DNA of 64,000 bases from contig JAHIUU010000007.1 in the NCBI GenBank assembly GCA_018817025.1, positions 1 to 64,000 of the forward strand, given 5' to 3'. The position numbers and the translations under genes are program-made. This document shows, in pieces, positions 11,419 through 60,252 of the stretch (its first letter is position 1; every line of letters starts with the position of its first letter). This stretch comes from Candidatus Babelota bacterium (lineage in GTDB: Bacteria; Babelota; Babeliae; Babelales; JAHIUU01). The notes below the pieces were generated by a model. It worked only from the letters and a program-made list of their open reading frames with translations. It did not search any database and was not told the DNA's origin.

Positions 11419-11862
11419 ATGGGGACTAAACGGGCGCAAGATCCTTCTGTTTTATTGAGTTTTATAAATTTTTTAAGCAGATCAAATCATTTGCCATCTT
11501 GGTTGTTTGCTGGGTTGCGTTTTTACAAGACACATTCGCTTCCCAGTGCAGAAATAATAAAGCAGGATAAAAAACTGCCGGTTGTTGTTTTTCTGCCCGG
11601 TGACCCCGTTATGCCTCGGCAGTATTCATGGCTTTTGGAAGAGCTGGCTAGTCATGGTTTTGTGGTTGCGACAATTAACCAAACGGATTTGACAACAGAA
11701 ACGCATTTTCCTGATGAGCGAGTTGTGAAGTGGGTTGGTCCAAAAATGAAAAAAGAGAGAAGAAAGTTTACGGGCCAAAAGTTGGTGGACAGTCATATAG
11801 AATGGCTGTGGGAGAAAGTTGAGCATAACTGGGAAATGGTGTGCCTCGCCGGACGATCTTAG
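11419..11862 (+). pseudogene. Truncated alpha/beta hydrolase (PAF-acetylhydrolase-like), N-terminal half only
   Basis: 147-residue fragment. KLPVVVFLPGD, then EELASHGFVVATINQTD and FPDERVV align with the N-terminal half of the hydrolase domain of the 866-aa protein at 23.7-26.3 kb (FPVIIFSHGA, EELASHGYVVVGINHTY, FPDGRII). The nucleophile elbow GHSFGG and everything after it are missing. Sequence identity with the hydrolase stops at about residue 137, exactly where the recombinase-end scar begins, and the frame then ends in CLAGRS-stop. It therefore looks like a gene cut by insertion or recombination at the scar. It is probably inactive. Confidence 0.75.
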
Positions 11863-11929
11863 AACTTTTATCCCCTGCGGATTTCCCTTTGAAGTTGTGC
11901 GAGCAGTACTGATTTATGGGGAAATTTGA
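11837..11929 (+). repeat. Scar A: recombinase 3'-end remnant
   Basis: Read from TGG at 11837 it encodes WCASPDDLRTFIPCG, then FPFEVVRAVL and a stop at 11927-11929. It matches scars B and C closely and D and E more loosely. Its first 21 bases resemble the start of the tRNA-Arg(CCT) 3' end where the intact recombinase ends at 39.06 kb (TGGTGTGCCTxGCxGGAC). It truncates the hydrolase fragment on its left and lies eight bases from the 3' end of the convergent MutY-like gene on its right. Confidence 0.75.
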
Positions 11930-12813: not shown

Positions 12814-13722
12814 ATGAAAATAGGGTATCCGTGTATCCATACAGAAATTGGCTGCAAAGCAAGCTCCGGCTTTCGGCTTGCATCCTATTCAAAAGATCGT
12901 CTTATAGAAACTGTGCAACGAAATCTCGATTGTTTAGAAAAAATATTGTTGTTTAATCTAAAGCATAAGATTTTCTTTTTTCGTATCTCGTCAGATTTGG
13001 TCCCTTTTGCCTCTCATCCCATTTGTACATATGATTGGCAAGCCCACTTTTCTAAGCAATTAAAAAACATAGGTAATTTTATAAAAAAGCATGATATGAG
13101 AATATCAATGCACCCAGATCAATTTGTGCTTATTAATGCCAAAGACAAGCGTATTGTGAAAAATAGCATTCGAGAACTTGCCTATCATTGTCAGGTGCTT
13201 GATCTCATGATGTTAGACGAGACCGCAAAGATTCAGATTCATGTTGGTGGGCTTTATGGCGACAAAGTTGCTTCTGTTGATCGTTTTATTCGTGTGTACA
13301 AGGCGCTTCCTCTCGATATGAAAAAGCGCTTAGCCATTGAAAATGACGATTATAAGTACAGTGTCCAGGACTGTATAGACATACACAAAAAAATAAATGT
13401 TCCAGTTATCTTTGATTCCCTACATCACGATTGTTTGAATAATGGCGAAAGCTACAGAGAAGCGTTAAAGATATGTAGCAAGACCTGGACAAAAAAAGAT
13501 GGCATTCCAATAATTGATTATAGTACACAGGATAAAACAAAGCGTAAGGGGGCGCATACACTATCAATCGATATAAGGCACTTCAAAGCTTTTATAAAGG
13601 AAATCAAAGGCATTGATTGTGATATCATGCTTGAGATTAAAGACAAACAAAAAAGTGCATCTCGGGCGTTGGAAGTGTTGCGTGTTAAGGATAAAATACG
13701 TAGATTGTTAGTAGAAAGATGA
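12814..13722 (+). CDS. uvsE: UV damage endonuclease UvsE (UVDE)
   Basis: Mn2+-dependent nuclease that nicks DNA 5' to UV photoproducts. The 302-aa TIM-barrel protein has the family landmarks: MKIGYPC at the N-terminus, FFRISSDLVPFASHP, SMHPDQFVLINA, IHVGG, LAIENDDYKYS and VIFDSLHHDC, which supply metal-binding His/Glu/Asp residues. Its length fits UVDE. The start codon is preceded by AAGAGG. It is divergent from the MutY-like gene, with starts about 50 bases apart, forming a small DNA-repair pair. Its 3' end overlaps the convergent channel gene by 38 bases. Confidence 0.93.
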   Translation: MKIGYPCIHTEIGCKASSGFRLASYSKDRLIETVQRNLDCLEKILLFNLKHKIFFFRISSDLVPFASHPICTYDWQAHFSKQLKNIGNFIKKHDMRISMHPDQFVLINAKDKRIVKNSIRELAYHCQVLDLMMLDETAKIQIHVGGLYGDKVASVDRFIRVYKALPLDMKKRLAIENDDYKYSVQDCIDIHKKINVPVIFDSLHHDCLNNGESYREALKICSKTWTKKDGIPIIDYSTQDKTKRKGAHTLSIDIRHFKAFIKEIKGIDCDIMLEIKDKQKSASRALEVLRVKDKIRRLLVER

Positions 13723-14800
13723 TGAAAAGTGTAATCGGCCAAAACAACAATTTGGGAAGAAGATTTTCTTTGTAACGTAAAAAAGAGATTTTTCGTTTTG
13801 ATTTAAACCGATAAAATACGCTTAATGATGAGAGAACTACAAGTAAATAAGAGGCTAAATAAAAATATTCTAGATAAAAAATACCGGAAATGGGAAGCTT
13901 GTCTCTCAGGGATACATGGGAGAAGATTATACTGAGTATTAAGGCACTGTTGGCTGAAAATAATGTGACCATGTTGAGTCGATCTGCGACAAGTAGCAGT
14001 ATAAAAATCAAGAACAGAATTATTATCAGAGGTAAAATAATTGACAAGAGGGGTTGAACGATTCTTCTTTTAATAATGACATTGTAGCTGAAGAGAGGTT
14101 TGTTTTTTATCGTTTCTTCGTGTAGTCCATAAGTTACTTCAGAAAACTGTTTCCCGTAAGAAAAAAAGCTTTTTTGGAGATTCCAGCCTTTTAGTGATAT
14201 CCGGTTTGAAAGGCCTGGAAGAGAGCTTGGTGTTATAATTGAATATGCTCCAAAGTCTGGTGTTAAAACGGAGTTTCCCGTCCGATCTTTTGTTGTGAGC
14301 TGCAGGCTGATTTGTTGGTAATCAAAAGGATACTTACCATATTGCGTGACAACAGGGAGTACGCATTTAAAATTCATCTCTGCAATTTTTTTACCGTTTT
14401 GAATATAGATTTTTTTTACTTCAATATCAGAACTAACTGATTTTTCAATGGAAAATTTTGGAATCTCTTCATCTTTCGTTTCAGGTGGATATTTTTGCCA
14501 CAAGTAACCAGAGAAATGTACACTGTCGATGTCTAAGAATTCTATGTGATTTACTATGACTCCCGTGGGAATATAAACTGGTTGAGCGATATTGATTAGG
14601 CCTTTTTTAGACTTAAAGAACATTTGCATATCATGTTGACTTGTTATAACAGATTTATTTGGGTCGACTTGTAAGCCTTCATCAAAGCCGATACTACATA
14701 TCATCGATATCCCTGTTATTAGCAATAATGAACCCAGAGCTGAACAAAGCATCAGGGCATTTTTGCTTGAAGCATACCGGTATGCAAAACCCATAATCAT
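13685..14800 (-). CDS. Pentameric ligand-gated ion channel (pro-loop receptor) homologue
   Basis: 371-aa membrane protein. After a signal or anchor segment (about 14-38) comes a beta-rich extracellular region containing YPFDYQ (157-162), the FPFDxQ motif at the heart of the Cys/pro-loop of pentameric ligand-gated channels. Then come three closely spaced hydrophobic helices from about residue 245, with the M2-M3 linker carrying DKLPISG followed by YFYLASYL, as in GLIC/ELIC-type channels, and a fourth helix at the very C-terminus. No Cys-loop disulfide pair is seen, as usual in prokaryotes. Its start lies 33 bases downstream of a Cache sensor gene. Ligand and ion selectivity are unknown. The assignment rests on motif and topology, not on alignment. 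Confidence 0.7.
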   Translation of the reverse strand: MIMGFAYRYASSKNALMLCSALGSLLLITGISMICSIGFDEGLQVDPNKSVITSQHDMQMFFKSKKGLINIAQPVYIPTGVIVNHIEFLDIDSVHFSGYLWQKYPPETKDEEIPKFSIEKSVSSDIEVKKIYIQNGKKIAEMNFKCVLPVVTQYGKYPFDYQQISLQLTTKDRTGNSVLTPDFGAYSIITPSSLPGLSNRISLKGWNLQKSFFSYGKQFSEVTYGLHEETIKNKPLFSYNVIIKRRIVQPLLSIILPLIIILFLIFILLLVADRLNMVTLFSANSALILSIIFSHVSLRDKLPISGIFYLEYFYLASYLLVVLSSLSVFYRFKSKRKISFLRYKENLLPKLLFWPITLFIIFLLTIYVFYP

Positions 14801-14833
14801 AAAAAGCAGAAAAAATAAGATTGTAATAACTAC

Positions 14834-15800
14834 TCAAATTTTGTTTTGTTTAATTTTTTTGATGTGTTTTACAAAAACTTCTTCTTTATAGTAAATTGCA
14901 GCAAAATGCCACTCAGTAGGTGCTATTTGATATAAAAATGCCCAGCTATCTTTTTTGACTTCGTTACTAATGTAATCTGTATAATCAATAATGCCATCTT
15001 TACCAGTAAGCATGCGTTTTCCAAGAAGGACAAGGGATGGATTCTTAGCCTTCTTTTCTAGATCAGCAATTGTTTTTTTGTTCAGAAACATATTCATTCA
15101 TATAGTGAGATATAATTGTTCCTTTTTTAGATAGTAAGAAGCCATAACCCGTTTTTCCTAAATTGAGGTATGAGATTCGGTTTGTGATGGCGTTCAAATT
15201 GAAATTGACAAAAACTATGCCAAGAGGTTTTCCCTTAGGACCATTTCCTTTGTGAACCGCTATTGCATATTCCCCGATTACAGCTCTTTTCTTAGCAACA
15301 TAGTATGGGTCAGACCAAGCTTCTCCTTTGGATAGCGGAGTTGTATACCAATTGACATCAGGTTTGAATTTGCTTTTTGAAGGTTGAGTATAATCGTATG
15401 TTATTGGGGTGGAAAGAACTTTGTTATTTTCTATTTGATAGTATGGAGCGAATAATTTTGTTTTTTCGTCAATTATGGATGGCTCAAAGGCAGCACCTAC
15501 TCCAACCAAGTTTGGGTTTTGTTTTAAACTTTCTTGTAATAACTTTTCGATATCTCCCTTACTCATTTTTTCTGCACCCAACTTCTTTGCCAGGGAAACA
15601 GCAGTTTCTTTTATAGCTTTTAGAGTTTTTTCAATAGAAAGCAATTCTTCGGAGAGACTTTTTTTTATTTCTTCTTGGACCTTGTTTTCAATTTTGGCCT
15701 TGAATGATACATTTTTGTATGAGAAATATAATCCCAGGGCAAGCATGATAGCAGAAAACCCCCAAAAGATATGTTCCAGAGTTTTTTTCTTCAATCTCAT
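14834..15800 (-). pseudogene. Membrane-anchored Cache-domain sensor protein, frameshifted
   Basis: Two overlapping minus-strand frames together make one dCache_1-like sensor. The first (15800 to 15063) has an N-terminal transmembrane helix, a coiled stretch, and the Cache motifs VGVGAAFEP, APYYQ, WYTTPL, WSDPYY and GYGFLLSKKGTIISH. The second (from about 15080 to 14834) continues with TIADLEKK, LTGKDG, WAFLYQIAPTEWHFA. They join at a run of seven A residues on the minus strand near 15072-15078: removing one A restores a continuous frame. No signalling output domain follows, so the adjacent channel gene is the natural partner. It could be a true pseudogene, a sequencing indel, or a gene rescued by slippage. 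Confidence 0.75.
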
Positions 15801-16028: not shown

Positions 16029-16147
16029 ATGTTTTGTTAACATGCCCCATGTCTATGGAGTGGTGTACCAAACTGGACGATCTTAGAACTTTTATTCCCC
16101 TAGGATTTCCTTTCGAAGATGTACGTACGATGCTTAGTTATGTGTGA
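16029..16147 (+). repeat. Scar B: left direct repeat flanking the toxin-antitoxin module
   Basis: Nearly identical to scar C over its whole length, starting at ATGTTTTGTTAACATG. From TGG at 16061 it encodes WCTKLDDLRTFIPLG, then FPFEDVRTMLSYV and stop. The part before TGG corresponds in position to the recombinase C-terminus but is not cleanly in frame, so it is decayed. It ends six bases before the hepT stop codon. Confidence 0.8.
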
Positions 16148-16153
16148 TTGTTA

Positions 16154-16609
16154 TTATTTAATTAGATTTGCTAATGAGTTTAGATAACACACGGTTTCTT
16201 GTCGCTTTATCTTATCAAAAACGTTTCTCAATCCAGTGATAGCTTCAAGAATATATTTTTTTTCGGAAGATTGTTTTAAAAGATTTAATACGCTTTTTTC
16301 AAGTTCAGGAATTTCTGTGATAGCAGTGTCAAAAATTATTTCTGGATTTATTCCAAAGTACCTGTGAACAACTATATTTCGAAAATCAACGACATCTTGC
16401 CATTCAATTCCTAATTGATGCCATGAACCAGGAGTGTTTTTAAGCTTCTTTGCAGATTCTCCTATTTCTTGCATTTCTCTTGTGACGAGAGCAAATGTTT
16501 TTTCGTCTGTTACAAAATCTACATATGGTAAGTCTTTAATATTTCTTCTAATTTTATCAATGGATATTAGAATATTTATAAATAATAATTCTGGCCGAGC
16601 TTTAGGCAT
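16154..16609 (-). CDS. hepT: HepT-like HEPN-domain ribonuclease toxin
   Basis: Toxin of the MntA-HepT type VII family (HEPN, formerly DUF86). The 151-aa helical protein contains RNIVVHRY, matching the catalytic Rx4HxY motif of HEPN RNases. It starts with ATG at 16609, overlapping the stop of the nucleotidyltransferase gene in ATGCCTAA, which is better than the in-frame ATG at 16627. The tight overlap with mntA is typical. Known HepT toxins are silenced by AMPylation of the tyrosine in this motif, and the tyrosine is present here. Confidence 0.9.
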   Translation of the reverse strand: MPKARPELLFINILISIDKIRRNIKDLPYVDFVTDEKTFALVTREMQEIGESAKKLKNTPGSWHQLGIEWQDVVDFRNIVVHRYFGINPEIIFDTAITEIPELEKSVLNLLKQSSEKKYILEAITGLRNVFDKIKRQETVCYLNSLANLIK

Positions 16610-16904
16610 ATACCCATTCCTTTTCAATGAGGTTTATTATGAAAGGATTTACAGAGTCCTTGTAAATTACATCAATTTTTTTATCAAATAGCTTTTCCAG
16701 GAATCGAAGGATATTTATATAGTTTCTGAAAGTTTTCTTTTCGCACTCAATGAGTATATCAATGTCACTTTTTTCTGTTGCCTCATTTCTTGCATATGAA
16801 CCAAATAAAATTATATTGTCTACGCTGAAATTCTTTTTAAGAAAGTCTTTATTATTTTTTAAGGTTTCAACAATTTGTTCTTTAGTTAGTTTTTCTTTTT
16901 CCAT
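16602..16904 (-). CDS. mntA: MntA-like minimal nucleotidyltransferase antitoxin
   Basis: 100-aa minimal nucleotidyltransferase. The signature GSYARNEATEKSDIDILIE carries GSx10DxD, the pol-beta-type catalytic motif. In characterised MntA-HepT pairs this enzyme AMPylates the toxin and neutralises it. It overlaps both neighbours: 23 bases with the AbrB-like gene upstream and eight with hepT downstream, so the three are translated as one operon. Length and order fit the family. Confidence 0.9.
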   Translation of the reverse strand: MEKEKLTKEQIVETLKNNKDFLKKNFSVDNIILFGSYARNEATEKSDIDILIECEKKTFRNYINILRFLEKLFDKKIDVIYKDSVNPFIINLIEKEWVYA

Positions 16905-17208: not shown

Positions 17209-17327
17209 ATGTTTGTTAACATGTCTCATGCCTATGGAAATGGTGTACCAAACTGGACGATCTTAGAACTTTTATCCCCTACGGATTTCCGTTCGAAGAT
17301 GTCCGTGCGGTGCTCAGTTATTCGTGA
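17209..17327 (+). repeat. Scar C: right direct repeat flanking the toxin-antitoxin module
   Basis: Direct repeat of scar B, in the same orientation and offset by 1180 bases. From TGG at 17241 it encodes WCTKLDDLRTFIPYG, then FPFEDVRAVLSYS and stop. Together with scar B it brackets the AbrB-MntA-HepT operon. The copper oxidase gene ends 56 bases to the right. The region 17074-17208 between the operon and this repeat holds no gene, only the likely operon promoter. Confidence 0.8.
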
Positions 17328-17383
17328 TGTGGTAATGTCATTGTCAACGGTTATTTGTGCTATAAATGCGAAATTGTTGCGTC

Positions 17384-19438
17384 TCAAAACCTAAGTCTAA
17401 TTCCAACGCCCTCTTCAAAATAAGAATCATAAGCAGCGGTGAGTAGAATATTCTTATTAAATTCATATGAAAGTTGTAAACGATACTCTTTATCGGTATT
17501 TGCTAACCATTCAAATTTTATACGCTTAGTTAATTGTAGATTGGATTTTAACCCAAAGCGGACATGTCCTTTTGTGTCAATGCGTAGGTCTGATTCGATG
17601 AGCATTGGAAGCATATAATTTATGCCGAATACTCCAGTATTTTCGGGCCCTTCATCTTCACGCTCTAAATTGGCCCCTATATAGGCGCTGAAAAAGCGTG
17701 TAAAGCTTCTTTTATATGCGATATCAACATCATATTCTTTGCTATAGTTATAATCATACTCAACTTCAAAAGCGTTGCGGGTATTTGAAGCACGAAACAT
17801 TCCCATTGTCATGTTATATAAAGCTGATACGTCTAGTAAGAAATACCATGTGTCGTGCGACAGTTTATTAAATGTTTTAGGGGTTGCGGTTGTTGTTTTT
17901 TCATAAGAGACTGAACGGGCCATGCCGGCTTTCATATGATAAAGATTATGACAGTGGAAAAACCAGTCTTTTTCTTCGTTTGCTTCAAATTCTATTTCAA
18001 TCTTGCTCATTGCTGGAACATTAACCGTGTGTTTGAGAGGGCTTCTTTCTCCTTGCCCGTTAAGTACGCGAAAAAAGTGGCCATGTAGATGTATTGGATG
18101 ATGCATCATCGTTTTGTTATTGAGTAAGAATCTAACGTTTTCGCCTTTTCTTATCATGATTTTACTAGACTCAAGCAGTGTTTTATTATTGAACGACCAG
18201 ACATAACGCTCCATATTTCCAGTTAAGTTTATGGTTAATTTTCTTTCTGGCCTTTCAGGAGATAAACTTGTGTTTTTTGTTGCCCGAAGGGCTTTATAGT
18301 CTTTCATATACTCTATAGGCTGTTTCTGCATCGTCATTGCTTCATGATGCATCAAGTGTTTTTTGCCGTTACCGTTATGCATAATGTTAGAGCTACCATG
18401 CATACTGTTATGCATGCTGTGATGTAGTAAAAACAAGTTTGGTCTAGGAATGTATGGGGCAAGCACCTTTTTGCCCGAGCCTATAAAAGTAGAGCTATGG
18501 CCCACGCCATCTTCAGAGGTTGCACGAAACTCATAAGCTTTATCATCTGAAACTTTTACAATAACATCGTATGTTTCTGCTATTGCGATGAGGAGCCGTT
18601 TGCTTTTTTGGGGTTCAACGTCAACACCATCAGCAGAGACTATTTTCATAGGTCCACCTGCAAATTCAATCTTGAAATAACTTGAAGCCGCTGCGTTAAT
18701 AAGGCGTATTCGTATAGTTTCGCCTGGTTTTGCATCTAGGTGTGAGATTTGTTTGCCGTTGGTCAGAAACGCGTCATACCCTATGTCAGACAAGTCCATA
18801 GGACCCATACGAGTCCAGGCTCCGCGTAATCGATTTTTTATAGCTACTCGACCGTTTTGTAGTACTTTGTCCCAAGATTGAACAGAATTTTTCTTCAGGG
18901 CATAATAGTCTCCATCTTTTTTTAGATTTGCCAGAACATTCTCGGGTTTTTCATTTGTCCAGTCAGACAGCACTACAACATAGTCTCTGTCTGTTTTGAT
19001 GGTCTCACCTCCAATTGGATGAAAAATAAGAGAGCCGTACAAGCCTTGTTGTTCTTGTAAGTTTGTGTGAGAGTGGTACCAGTATGTACCTGAGTGCTTC
19101 ACTTTAAATTGATAGGTAAATGATGATTTTGACTTTATTGGTGGTGTTGTCAAATAGGGAACTCCGTCTTGGTTGTTTGGAAGGAGAACACCATGCCAAT
19201 GTATAGATGTTTCTTTATCCATTTTGTTATGGAAAGTAACCATGAGGGTGTCTCCAACTGTTGCCTCGATCGTTGGTGCTGGAATTTGTTTGTTTATGGC
19301 GAGAGCGGTTACGGGTTTTCCGGTAAAATTTACCTCTATCTCATCTATATCGAAGTGATATTCAACTGTTTTTGTATGAGCTATAAATGTTGCTGGTATT
19401 GCGATTGATAAACAAATAACTTTTTTGAATTTATTCAC
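17384..19438 (-). CDS. CopA-type multicopper oxidase with a C-terminal outer-membrane-barrel-like domain
   Basis: Periplasmic or surface copper oxidase, 684 aa with a signal peptide (about 1-22). Copper ligands are all present: IHWHG (80-82), YWYHSHT (122-124), HPIHLHGH and the T1/T3 site HCHNLYHMKAGM. A Met/His-rich loop (LLHHSMHNSMHG and following) resembles copper-binding inserts of CopA/PcoA. After about residue 530 the sequence changes to alternating aromatic/polar strands ending in RLRF, like CopB/PcoB-type barrels. CopA and CopB are normally separate genes, so this looks like a fusion. Likely role: Cu(I) oxidation and copper tolerance at the outer membrane. Confidence 0.88.
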   Translation of the reverse strand: MNKFKKVICLSIAIPATFIAHTKTVEYHFDIDEIEVNFTGKPVTALAINKQIPAPTIEATVGDTLMVTFHNKMDKETSIHWHGVLLPNNQDGVPYLTTPPIKSKSSFTYQFKVKHSGTYWYHSHTNLQEQQGLYGSLIFHPIGGETIKTDRDYVVVLSDWTNEKPENVLANLKKDGDYYALKKNSVQSWDKVLQNGRVAIKNRLRGAWTRMGPMDLSDIGYDAFLTNGKQISHLDAKPGETIRIRLINAAASSYFKIEFAGGPMKIVSADGVDVEPQKSKRLLIAIAETYDVIVKVSDDKAYEFRATSEDGVGHSSTFIGSGKKVLAPYIPRPNLFLLHHSMHNSMHGSSNIMHNGNGKKHLMHHEAMTMQKQPIEYMKDYKALRATKNTSLSPERPERKLTINLTGNMERYVWSFNNKTLLESSKIMIRKGENVRFLLNNKTMMHHPIHLHGHFFRVLNGQGERSPLKHTVNVPAMSKIEIEFEANEEKDWFFHCHNLYHMKAGMARSVSYEKTTTATPKTFNKLSHDTWYFLLDVSALYNMTMGMFRASNTRNAFEVEYDYNYSKEYDVDIAYKRSFTRFFSAYIGANLEREDEGPENTGVFGINYMLPMLIESDLRIDTKGHVRFGLKSNLQLTKRIKFEWLANTDKEYRLQLSYEFNKNILLTAAYDSYFEEGVGIRLRF

Positions 19439-19541: not shown

Positions 19542-19844
19542 ATGTCATCCAATGTAGATGCAGATGAATCCTGTCTTATTACGGCTAAAACCGTTCTGGA
19601 TTTGGCTAAAAGGGCTAAGGAGATTTTCTTGAGTTCGAGGATGGAGGAAAAACAGCAACTTTTGAATTTCGTATTCTCGAACTTACAGCTCGATCACGAT
19701 AAGCTGCTTGTAGAGCTTCGAGAGCCCTTCAATATGATAGTAAATTTAAGTGATCGACCTGAGTGGTGTGCCCATTTGGACGATTATCGAACTTTTTTGA
19801 CAGGTGGGGTTATTGTAGATGACATGCGGGCGGTGCTGGTTTGA
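19542..19844 (+). pseudogene. Scar D: C-terminal fragment of a large serine recombinase
   Basis: About 100 residues that align with the last 60-70 residues of the intact recombinase at 37.6-39.1 kb: AKTVLDLAKRAKEIF, then KQQLLNFVFSNL, then ELREPFNMIV and EWCA correspond to ADLILELAKNASQLF, HKILKLMVSNC, ELRLPFSLIL and KWCA. No catalytic or zinc domain is present. After WCA it continues with the scar signature HLDDYRTFL and a VDDMRAVLV ending. This copy shows most clearly what the other scars are. Confidence 0.8.
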
Positions 19845-22937: not shown

Positions 22938-23708
22938 TTAAGATTTAAATTTTTTAAAATACTCTTCTTTGCTGGTGGAAATATTTATCTTGTCTTTGTC
23001 AATCAAGCCATAGATTGCCTTTTCATTTTTCTCAACGTAAGCCCAAGCCCGATCGCCGTAACTATAATGCCACCACTCATAACCGTAATTGACCAGACCA
23101 ACTTTTGATGCGGCACTTAGGAGCAGAATTCTATTTTTGCGTTGCTTTTCGGTAATGTTCTCCGTTAGCGTTTGAGCTTGAAGATTTGGACCAATAGCAG
23201 TGTCATGCCTACCTAAGTCCAATAAGCTCTTGGTTCCATCATCATTAAAGATAAAGAGCGTAAAATCAATTGCAGCACCTGTGCAATGCACTGGAACATT
23301 GTCAATGTAGGGGGATACAAATATGCTGGCCTGCATATAAGCTTTTTCAAGATCACCATGATCAAACTGCCTTACCAGCTCTCTAAATTTTTTATCAAAA
23401 TATTCTTTTTGTTTCCACAATGGACGGTAGCCTTGGGCAAAGGCTATCCCAATATTTTTGGGAAGACGTTCAAGCAGCAACAGCAATCTTTCATAAAGTC
23501 CTATTCGAACTTTTCCATTATCTGGATGTCCAGCATCATATGTTTTATCGAATTCTGCAAATGGAATAATTCGCTCATTATTTACTTCTTTTAAATCAAC
23601 GAGGTCTTCGCCACATTCGTCGATATCTATGCTTTTTATCTCTGGACTAGCAATGGGTAAGCGCAAAATTTTAAACGAATTTTCTTGGATATTGAGTTTT
23701 TTTATCAT
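22938..23708 (-). CDS. VanX-like D-Ala-D-Ala dipeptidase, second copy, no signal peptide
   Basis: 256 aa, M15D family. HCTGAAIDFTLF supplies a zinc His and Asp, and EWWHYSYGDRAWAY the catalytic Glu and third His. IGIAFAQGYRPLWKQ matches the family's GYRP motif. Unlike the copy at 6.2-6.9 kb it has no signal peptide and longer loops, so it probably works in the cytoplasm, perhaps recycling D-Ala-D-Ala. Its start overlaps the end of the 866-aa fusion gene by four bases (ATGA-type), implying co-translation. Confidence 0.85.
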   Translation of the reverse strand: MIKKLNIQENSFKILRLPIASPEIKSIDIDECGEDLVDLKEVNNERIIPFAEFDKTYDAGHPDNGKVRIGLYERLLLLLERLPKNIGIAFAQGYRPLWKQKEYFDKKFRELVRQFDHGDLEKAYMQASIFVSPYIDNVPVHCTGAAIDFTLFIFNDDGTKSLLDLGRHDTAIGPNLQAQTLTENITEKQRKNRILLLSAASKVGLVNYGYEWWHYSYGDRAWAYVEKNEKAIYGLIDKDKINISTSKEEYFKKFKS

Positions 23709-57269: not shown

Positions 57270-58619
57270 TCAAGGTGTTTCACCCTCTCCTATGATTGTC
57301 TTGCTGGTAATCGTCTTTTCATATGACTTGCCTACGAAATAGGCCGTAAGGGCCCATGCGGAGGTGATTGCGAGTGAAAGTACTGCGTTAGCGGAGAAGA
57401 AAAACGATGGAGATGTTTGGTAGAAGAGCATGTTGATTGTTGAGCCAGAGGACTTCGAGATTGTGCGGCCAAACGAGTCGATCCAGGCTTTTGATTTGAA
57501 CTGGATTTCTCTGATGGTTGGGATGAAGAGCATTTCTCGGGCAGGAGAGTTAACGCTGAAGTGGATTGCGGGGAAAAGCGTCATAGCTGCAAGCATGGTG
57601 AGCAAATTTGGCGAAAGCAAGAGTACGGTTGAGAGTAGTAGAATGCTGGTTGGCATGATCATGAGCGTGTATTGGAGTGGTATTTTGCGAAGAAGTGTCG
57701 AAGTTGCGAAAATTGTGAGAGCGAGCCCTATAACCTGAGATATGGTTGCACATAAAAAAAGAACAGAGCTCATCGAAGTAACGGTGGTTGTGGTTTTTGC
57801 CAGCATAACGGTTGCTTGATATTCCACAACGGCGAAAAGTACCTCGTAAAAATAAAAGAGAAGAAATGTTCCGAAGACATAGGGCTTGGTGACAATGAAC
57901 ATCATACCTTCGAGCATTCCCAGTACGGTTTTTTTCTTTGTTGTTACCGTTTGTTTTTGCTCTGCCTGATATCCCAGGAGGTTTTCTTTAGGAACAGATT
58001 TGATTATTTTTGCGATAAAAAGTAACGAGATAAGCGTTGCGCATGATGCGGTGATAATCAGGCCCGGAACGATTGTATGGTTGCCTGTTGACGTTGCGTT
58101 GTGGAGGAGCAGAAAGCTTAGGCCGGTTGTCACAATGCTTCCGATTTTGATGCTACTGTAGATGAAAGCATAGCCGTTTTTTGCAAAGTGAGGGGTGCTT
58201 ACTGAATTTATGAACGACCAAAAAGTTCCGATAACGAAGGTTGGATAAAAATCCATAAAGACTGAATATGTCCATCCAAGAAGCCGATAGGGGCTGGCCT
58301 GAGTGTTGGCGAGTCCCATTGATGGATACATTAGGAAGGTGGCTAGTGTTAGACCGATAAAGAAGTAGATGGTGAAAGAGATGTACAGAATGGTATGTCG
58401 TTTAAAAAAGTCGACCAGCTTCGAATACCACGCAATGGTCGGTATTGCAACGACGAGCATGAGGATCTTGCTGAGTGGATAGTATTCTTCTCCAACAAGC
58501 TGGAAGAATAAAGAGATCTTAAGTGGTCGTAAGATTCCATATGATGCGGCAATAAAACAGGCTGATGTTGCAAGCAAGAGCGCCTTTTTTCGGTCATGGG
58601 GAGATAATGCCTGTAGCAT
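57270..58619 (-). CDS. ATP/ADP translocase (NTT family), copy 1
   Basis: 449-aa membrane protein with about twelve helices of the TLC/NTT family. GILRPLKISLFF, LLGWTYSVFMDFYPTF, FWSFINSVSTPHFAKNGYAF and LFIPTIREIQFKSKAWIDSFG match this family, which lets intracellular bacteria import host ATP. It starts two bases after the stop of copy 2, so the two are co-transcribed. Which nucleotide it moves cannot be told from sequence alone. Confidence 0.9.
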   Translation of the reverse strand: MLQALSPHDRKKALLLATSACFIAASYGILRPLKISLFFQLVGEEYYPLSKILMLVVAIPTIAWYSKLVDFFKRHTILYISFTIYFFIGLTLATFLMYPSMGLANTQASPYRLLGWTYSVFMDFYPTFVIGTFWSFINSVSTPHFAKNGYAFIYSSIKIGSIVTTGLSFLLLHNATSTGNHTIVPGLIITASCATLISLLFIAKIIKSVPKENLLGYQAEQKQTVTTKKKTVLGMLEGMMFIVTKPYVFGTFLLFYFYEVLFAVVEYQATVMLAKTTTTVTSMSSVLFLCATISQVIGLALTIFATSTLLRKIPLQYTLMIMPTSILLLSTVLLLSPNLLTMLAAMTLFPAIHFSVNSPAREMLFIPTIREIQFKSKAWIDSFGRTISKSSGSTINMLFYQTSPSFFFSANAVLSLAITSAWALTAYFVGKSYEKTITSKTIIGEGETP

Positions 58620-58621
58620 TC

Positions 58622-60034
58622 TTACGATTCAGATTCGTCTGCTCCGATTACTTCGTTGTTATCAACCGTTCGTTGGAATTTTTTACCCATGAAATAGGTG
58701 ATGCCTATCCATCCAGTAGAAAGAGCAATTGTGAACAGGGTGCTGCTCTGAATAACGCCGAGGAGGATTGATTTATTGAGCAGGGAGCCGGTAGCTTTTG
58801 CTATCCTAGATCCGAAGGCATCAGTCCAGGCCTTGGCCTTAAACTTGATCGATTTAGTGGTTGGTATGAATAGGGCCTCTCGTGTTGGGTGATTGAGGCC
58901 GTAGTTAAGGGCTCGTAGCACAATGAGTGAGGCAAAAATTACAGTAGGCGTTGGAAACAGCAATGCAATTGTAAGAATAATAAGGCTCAGAATTGGGCAG
59001 ACAAAGAGGGACAGTCGTATCCCTAAAAAACGTAGGAGTGGTGTTGTTCCAAACAGTGCGATAACCAGACCCACAGAATGCATGCAAAAGGTATAGATCG
59101 AGTAAAAGTTCGCGAGACCTGTTGCCGTTAGATGCTTGCTATCGGCGACGATGGCTACGAGGTAATCGAAGATGACTATTATTACTTCGTAAGAGAGGAT
59201 AAGCGAGAATATTCCAAATACATATGGGTTTTTTACAATTAAGATTATTCCATCGAGACTCTCTTTGAGCGATTGCATAACGGTTTTCGACCCTTTAGTT
59301 TCGTCTTTTTGTTTTTCAAACTGATAGGCTGCTTCATATCCATGCATGAGATAGCCCGGGACCAACCTCATCAAAAGGTATATCGCGGCAGCGGCGCCGA
59401 ATAGCAGGAGGCTTCCCACTAAGACGAATCTTGGAATAACAACTGTTTGATAGTTTGCAAGGTCGAAACTATAGGTTGCGAAAAAGAGTGTGCCGGCACC
59501 CATGATGCCACCAATTTTTGAGCCGCAAACGAACAGACTGTAGTGGTTTTTTGCATCCTTTGGGTTGTTGACGGAGTTGGCAAAGGACCAGAAGACGGCA
59601 GACATAAACGCTCCAAAGCTTTCCAGAAACAGATAGAAAGACCAGCCAAAGATACGAGATGGGCTTTGAAGAGTATTTGCCAGGCCATATACCGGATGAG
59701 AGAGGTAGTAGTACATTATAATGCCTACTAGGCCATGTGCGATAGTGAACCAGTAGAAAAGGTGGTGTCTGCGGAGCCAGTCAACCAGTTTTGAGTAAAG
59801 AATGATAAGAAGAATAAGAGGGAGCATGAGGAGAAGCTTTGCGTCAGGAATGTGTTTGACGCCGACTATCGAGATAAATACCGCACTTTTGAGAGGGCGC
59901 CAGATAGCCTGGCAGGCGGTAAGCATGAAAAACGCTAGTGTTAGAAAGAAGACTTTGAGGCGAAACTCTTTTTTGATGCCCCAGGTGGCGTCCAGTTTTG
60001 TTCCAATCTTGGAAAATAGTGGAAAGAGTTTCAA
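58622..60034 (-). CDS. ATP/ADP translocase (NTT family), copy 2
   Basis: 470 aa from a TTG at 60034 with AAAGGAGAC directly upstream; the longer frame lacks such a site. Same family landmarks as copy 1: WRPLKSAVF, IFGWSFYLFLESFGAF, FWSFANSVNNPKDAKNHY, LFIPTTKSIKFKAKAWTDAFG. First gene of a tandem pair. Diverged paralogues commonly take different nucleotides or run uptake versus exchange. Confidence 0.9.
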   Translation of the reverse strand: MKLFPLFSKIGTKLDATWGIKKEFRLKVFFLTLAFFMLTACQAIWRPLKSAVFISIVGVKHIPDAKLLLMLPLILLIILYSKLVDWLRRHHLFYWFTIAHGLVGIIMYYYLSHPVYGLANTLQSPSRIFGWSFYLFLESFGAFMSAVFWSFANSVNNPKDAKNHYSLFVCGSKIGGIMGAGTLFFATYSFDLANYQTVVIPRFVLVGSLLLFGAAAAIYLLMRLVPGYLMHGYEAAYQFEKQKDETKGSKTVMQSLKESLDGIILIVKNPYVFGIFSLILSYEVIIVIFDYLVAIVADSKHLTATGLANFYSIYTFCMHSVGLVIALFGTTPLLRFLGIRLSLFVCPILSLIILTIALLFPTPTVIFASLIVLRALNYGLNHPTREALFIPTTKSIKFKAKAWTDAFGSRIAKATGSLLNKSILLGVIQSSTLFTIALSTGWIGITYFMGKKFQRTVDNNEVIGADESES

Positions 60035-60252
60035 GTTGTCTCCTTTAGTATAATGAAATGTTTGAAAAACAGTGTCTTCTTCACAAAACAAAGGCAGAAA
60101 ATCTCTAAAAATGGTAAATATATTCTATATTTGGGTCCGGAAAAGTCAATTGTTGTAGTGAAAAAGTTTGTATTGCGACCAAATTTGCATAATGCTGCAT
60201 TCTAGGATAAAATTTAGGCATGAAATCAGTAGTTTGGGAAGGGTTTACCGAT

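Follow-up and report, generated by a model that had tools for sequence, protein, structure and literature searches.

The window analysed here is a 64,000-nucleotide stretch of contig JAHIUU010000007.1 from a Candidatus Babelota bacterium. On its minus strand, at 13685-15800, three coding pieces follow one another: a Cache ORF (15800-15063), an 87-aa fragment (15097-14834) and a channel ORF (14800-13685). The Cache ORF encodes 245 aa, comprising a membrane helix and most of a dCache domain, and its start is preceded by a purine-rich stretch resembling a Shine-Dalgarno sequence. The fragment carries the C-terminal part of the Cache domain in 87 codons (14837-15097, or 14834-15097 with the terminal TGA). 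The channel ORF encodes 371 aa, starting with what was the third membrane helix in the ancestral protein and continuing through the extracellular beta-sandwich of a pentameric ligand-gated ion channel (pLGIC), with its Pro-loop YPFD (in the motif KYPFDYQ), to four membrane helices. An earlier note on this DNA had located the Cache and channel ORFs correctly, and had read them as a sensor and a ligand-gated channel encoded 33 bp apart. That gap in fact runs from the channel ATG to the 87-codon fragment, which had been assigned to the Cache gene; the ORF of 245 aa itself ends 262 bp before the channel start.

The reading frames relate these pieces to each other. The frame of the 245-aa Cache ORF differs from that of the fragment and channel, which share one: translation of 15097-13685 yields the Cache end, a TGA, a helix and the channel, the TGA being the sole internal stop. 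Two lesions separate the pieces. The first is an A7 tract at 15073-15079 (A6 in the paralogue), where the frame shifts inside the second Cache lobe, leaving the Cache ORF without the remainder of that lobe and without the second membrane helix. The second is an in-frame TGA (14834-14836) in place of a Leu codon of the paralogue. From there to the channel ATG, 11 codons (14801-14833) still encode the second membrane helix, recognisable as VVITILFFLLF against VIIAILFFLLF in the paralogue, and inspection of the sequence before the channel ATG revealed no Shine-Dalgarno-like ribosome-binding site. The locus thus does not hold an entire stand-alone Cache gene next to an entire channel gene. TGA terminates 17 of the 47 window ORFs with 150 aa or more and acts as a normal stop codon in this genome, which rules out its reading as Trp.

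Several other features lie nearby. Three copies of an 88-nt direct repeat (11837-11924, 16061-16148 and 17241-17328; 73-100% identity) flank the locus; the translated repeat resembles the end of ORF 19542-19844, and the copies are possibly remnants of one mobile gene. A truncated PAF-acetylhydrolase-like gene (11419-11862) runs into one of the repeats, and a PAF-acetylhydrolase-like domain is also joined to GNAT acetyltransferase domains in an 866-aa protein (23705-26305). A HepT-like/nucleotidyltransferase gene pair of the HEPN-MNT type (16154-16627 and 16602-16904) adjoins the locus, and the multicopper oxidase encoded at 17384-19438, with a weak C-terminal CopB match (E 4.8e-4), is a possible CopA-CopB fusion. 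Two adjoining TLC-type ATP/ADP transporter genes (57270-58619 and 58622-60091) are consistent with energy-parasitic intracellular life; together with the 1.1 Mb genome they make the intracellular lifestyle suggested in the earlier note plausible.

Predicted folds of the channel and Cache parts

The AlphaFold2 model of the window channel (pLDDT 73, pTM 0.65) contains the beta-sandwich and four membrane helices of a pLGIC; their absence had been named beforehand as the outcome that would overturn the channel assignment, and it did not occur. Foldseek comparison with the PDB placed GLIC first (E 3.4e-13), with GABA-A and glycine receptors next, at moderate TM-scores (about 0.5-0.65) and identities of 12-19%. 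A profile built from 16 family members also matches GLIC (E 2.5e-5), aligning the YPFD columns with RYPFD of GLIC, and the Pro-loop signature (YP-F/L-D) is present as KYPFDYQ, whose Y and P are conserved in 90% or more of the relatives. A Pfam scan of the window channel gave no pLGIC match, and phmmer gave only marginal matches to DeCLIC (E 0.7-0.8). A genome search with PF02931 (Neur_chan_LBD) found no match, but the control also matched no genome, and the model may miss this branch. Judged by its modelled fold, the window channel is a pLGIC homologue.

The Cache ORF scores 43.5 bits with MCP-like_PDC_1 (cut-off 27) and, as a truncated fragment, 33.5 bits with dCache_1 (cut-off 45). No output domain was found on it by Pfam scan, and it derives from a dCache sensor. 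The earlier description of a Cache sensor next to a pLGIC homologue stands. In a profile of fused family members, one half matches GLIC (E 5e-4) and the other matches crystal structures of dCache domains (3lib, E 1e-20). A model of one fused relative (L004) resembles dCache histidine-kinase sensors (3lic, E 4e-13) together with sTeLIC and GLIC (E 4e-9 to 6e-9); at a pTM of 0.48, the relative placement of its domains is unreliable.

Among characterised channels, GLIC, the Gloeobacter proton-gated channel, is the best match by both fold and profile, sharing the beta-sandwich, four-helix layout and Pro-loop, but it lacks an N-terminal sensor and is 16-19% identical to the window channel in structural alignment. 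DeCLIC, from Desulfofustis, is a pLGIC that carries a sizeable additional N-terminal region in the periplasm; homology of the lobes of this region to calcium-binding regulatory domains has been described, without mention of Cache (PMC12664993); the window family differs from it in having a dCache domain with membrane helices on both sides.

An intact paralogue and the nature of the break

A search of the genome to which the window belongs (26 contigs, 1.10 Mb) gave a second copy on contig C20 (L035:4971-7085). It is a single ORF of 704 aa with zero internal stops, carrying dCache and channel in one frame, whereas in the window copy the frameshift and TGA interrupt that frame. Its dCache_1 score is 50.1 bits (cut-off 45). 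Seven membrane helices are predicted, at residues 8-26, 321-339 and 349-367 and four at the C-terminus, so that the two-lobed extracytoplasmic domain has helices on both sides. The two copies are 72% identical in DNA over 1,963 bp, in an alignment that crosses both lesions, and tblastn of the paralogue protein places residues 1-243 in one frame of the window and 239-703 in the other. The Cache N-terminal ORF is 63% identical to residues 1-243 of the paralogue and the channel part 75% identical to its counterpart. An Nramp-type metal transporter gene (L035:7114-8403) starts 28 bp after the paralogue on the same strand; it is not common to the other receptor loci compared, and no neighbour that might hint at the ligand is common to most of the 13 loci, except the receptor itself.

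The alignment through both lesions, the helix remnant and the ribosome-binding pattern together indicate that the ancestor of the window copy was a single gene, and because the frameshift and TGA interrupt the fused frame we class the window copy as broken. The locus is thus very likely one duplicate of a fused sensor-channel gene, broken in this assembly by a +1 frameshift at A7 and an in-frame TGA. The reading frames and the paralogue rule out a two-gene operon at the window locus. The operon partnership of sensor and channel proposed earlier does not survive the alignment with a single-frame paralogue, nor does a two-component channel at this site, where the fragment and channel share a frame with only the TGA between them and the Cache ORF is frameshifted and truncated.

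How old, and how real, the break is can be gauged from substitutions between the copies. Values of pN are 0.149 for the channel and 0.21-0.22 for the Cache part, with pS at 0.63-0.80 and mostly saturated. Conservation among relatives reaches at least 90% at 21 columns; both copies keep the residue at 20 of these and differ alike at the remaining one. By these measures no decay of the window copy beyond the two lesions was seen. Since pN is low, pS saturated and the conserved residues are kept, both copies have long been under selection, with the break either very recent or an assembly error. The lack of further decay would also be expected if one or both lesions were assembly errors or were bypassed in the cell.

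The first of these possibilities is that sequencing or assembly errors created both lesions and that the organism has a second intact fused Cache-pLGIC gene. This shares the fused-gene core of our interpretation and differs on whether the break is real. It agrees with the lack of any sign of relaxed selection, and one of the lesions belongs to the commonest class of sequencing error, a homopolymer indel. The TGA, however, needs a substitution rather than a homopolymer error. The explanation would also put two errors into a single gene of 2.1 kb, whereas almost every other long ORF in the window appears uninterrupted, which counts against poor assembly. We consider this explanation unlikely.

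The second is that full-length protein is still made, through transcript slippage at A7 combined with read-through of the TGA. The A7 tract does sit at the frameshift, and AT-rich symbionts are known to show slippage at poly(A) tracts, which counts in its favour. It nevertheless demands two independent recoding events, one of them at an ordinary stop of this genome, and a shift of +1 rather than the common -1 at A AAA AAC. That heptamer is present in frame as a classical -1 slippery site, but is unhelpful when the needed change is +1. Such bypass is highly improbable, and a single fused gene, a duplicate interrupted in this assembly, remains our preferred reading.

Fused, split and double-Cache relatives

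The comparison was extended to 101 genomes of the same order, 35 of which contain family members. Most relatives are fused: open frames of 680-1,061 aa account for 27 copies in 23 of the 101 genomes, so the fused homologues that the earlier note had proposed looking for do exist. Fused relatives also occur in Acidobacteria, Elusimicrobia, Syntrophus, Aminicenantes and other MAGs. Forms of about 1,000 aa have an extra helix pair and a second Cache-sized region; six such pLGIC relatives (L036, L037, L038, L039, L040 and L041) carry, ahead of the channel, two membrane-flanked Cache-sized regions in succession, and in L037 two dCache_1 stretches score above threshold. Beside Cache-less copies of about 453-461 aa (G016, G045 and G097), no Cache gene was found in the adjoining DNA examined. 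Further interrupted copies were seen in G039, L008 (an in-frame TAA), L005 (its second copy) and L013; among the interrupted fused members L008:4933-7125, L005:4919-7074, L013:5004-7134 and L044:553-2669, the break lies within the Cache part in three of four.

Paired homologues, which had likewise been proposed as a check, are absent at the window locus but present in two genomes of one genus in the same order (G098 and G099). In G098, a stand-alone dCache gene (L069:2235-3611, 458 aa) is followed after 10 bp by a separate pLGIC gene (L069:3622-4725, 367 aa); in G099, the corresponding genes are L068:3220-4572 (450 aa) and L068:1967-3184 (405 aa), 35 bp apart and again with the Cache gene upstream. 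Both stand-alone Cache proteins have helices at both ends. Comparison of G098 with G099 gives 61% identity for the Cache proteins and 66% for the channels, with saturated synonymous sites, so both genes are maintained. The L069 protein matches dCache_1 at 29.1 bits, short of the 45-bit cut-off, and the Pfam scan returned nothing for L068; the Cache call for the pair therefore rests on L069 and homology. The two genomes hold a genuine two-gene Cache and pLGIC pair, the arrangement that the earlier note had imagined.

These pairs, a Rhodopseudomonas case (PMC549065) and the conserved residues kept in both parts lend some support to the idea that separate Cache and channel proteins from the window locus cooperate as a two-component receptor. 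That idea is nonetheless very hard to reconcile with a Cache ORF cut within its second lobe and lacking its second membrane helix, a channel ORF without a ribosome-binding site, a helix code that continues across the gap and a paralogue that is a single chain, and we give it very little weight. A functional split, in which the fused receptor recently became a separately translated but still-assembling Cache and channel beside the intact fused paralogue, is similarly remote.

Neither the fused nor the operon architecture is new, as Tasneem et al. 2005 (PMC549065) reported bacterial pLGICs fused to Cache domains as well as a single predicted operon of Cache and pLGIC genes, in Rhodopseudomonas. 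Their ART-LGICs (for example in Methanosarcina, Cytophaga and Microbulbifer) likewise join an N-terminal Cache domain to a pLGIC core in one chain, but have MCP-N plus Cache, whereas here a dCache domain is flanked by membrane helices and the window copy is interrupted. The Rhodopseudomonas operon also sets Cache and channel side by side, but with a stand-alone Cache gene, where the window holds fragments of one fused gene. The window locus is therefore a broken representative of an already known kind of Cache-pLGIC fusion. A literature search for studied Cache-pLGICs returned only Tasneem et al. 2005, and found no experimental test of Cache gating.

Proposed receptor and its significance

The fused protein runs from a membrane helix through a periplasmic dCache domain, a helix hairpin and the pLGIC extracellular domain to the four-helix channel domain. 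By homology, the intact receptor would sit in the inner membrane as a homopentamer. Its dCache domain would bind a small molecule, perhaps with a second ligand at the pLGIC subunit interface, and binding would move the beta-sandwich and open the pore. The C20 copy would do the receptor's job, and the window copy most likely gives no working receptor.

The case illustrates how a fused receptor can come to resemble a two-gene system through a one-base shift plus a stop codon, a question settled here by the paralogue in the same genome. The double-Cache form and the two-gene pair of G098 and G099 may merit a separate look. The intact paralogue offers a compact, expressible candidate for the question, raised in 2005, of whether a Cache domain gates a pLGIC.
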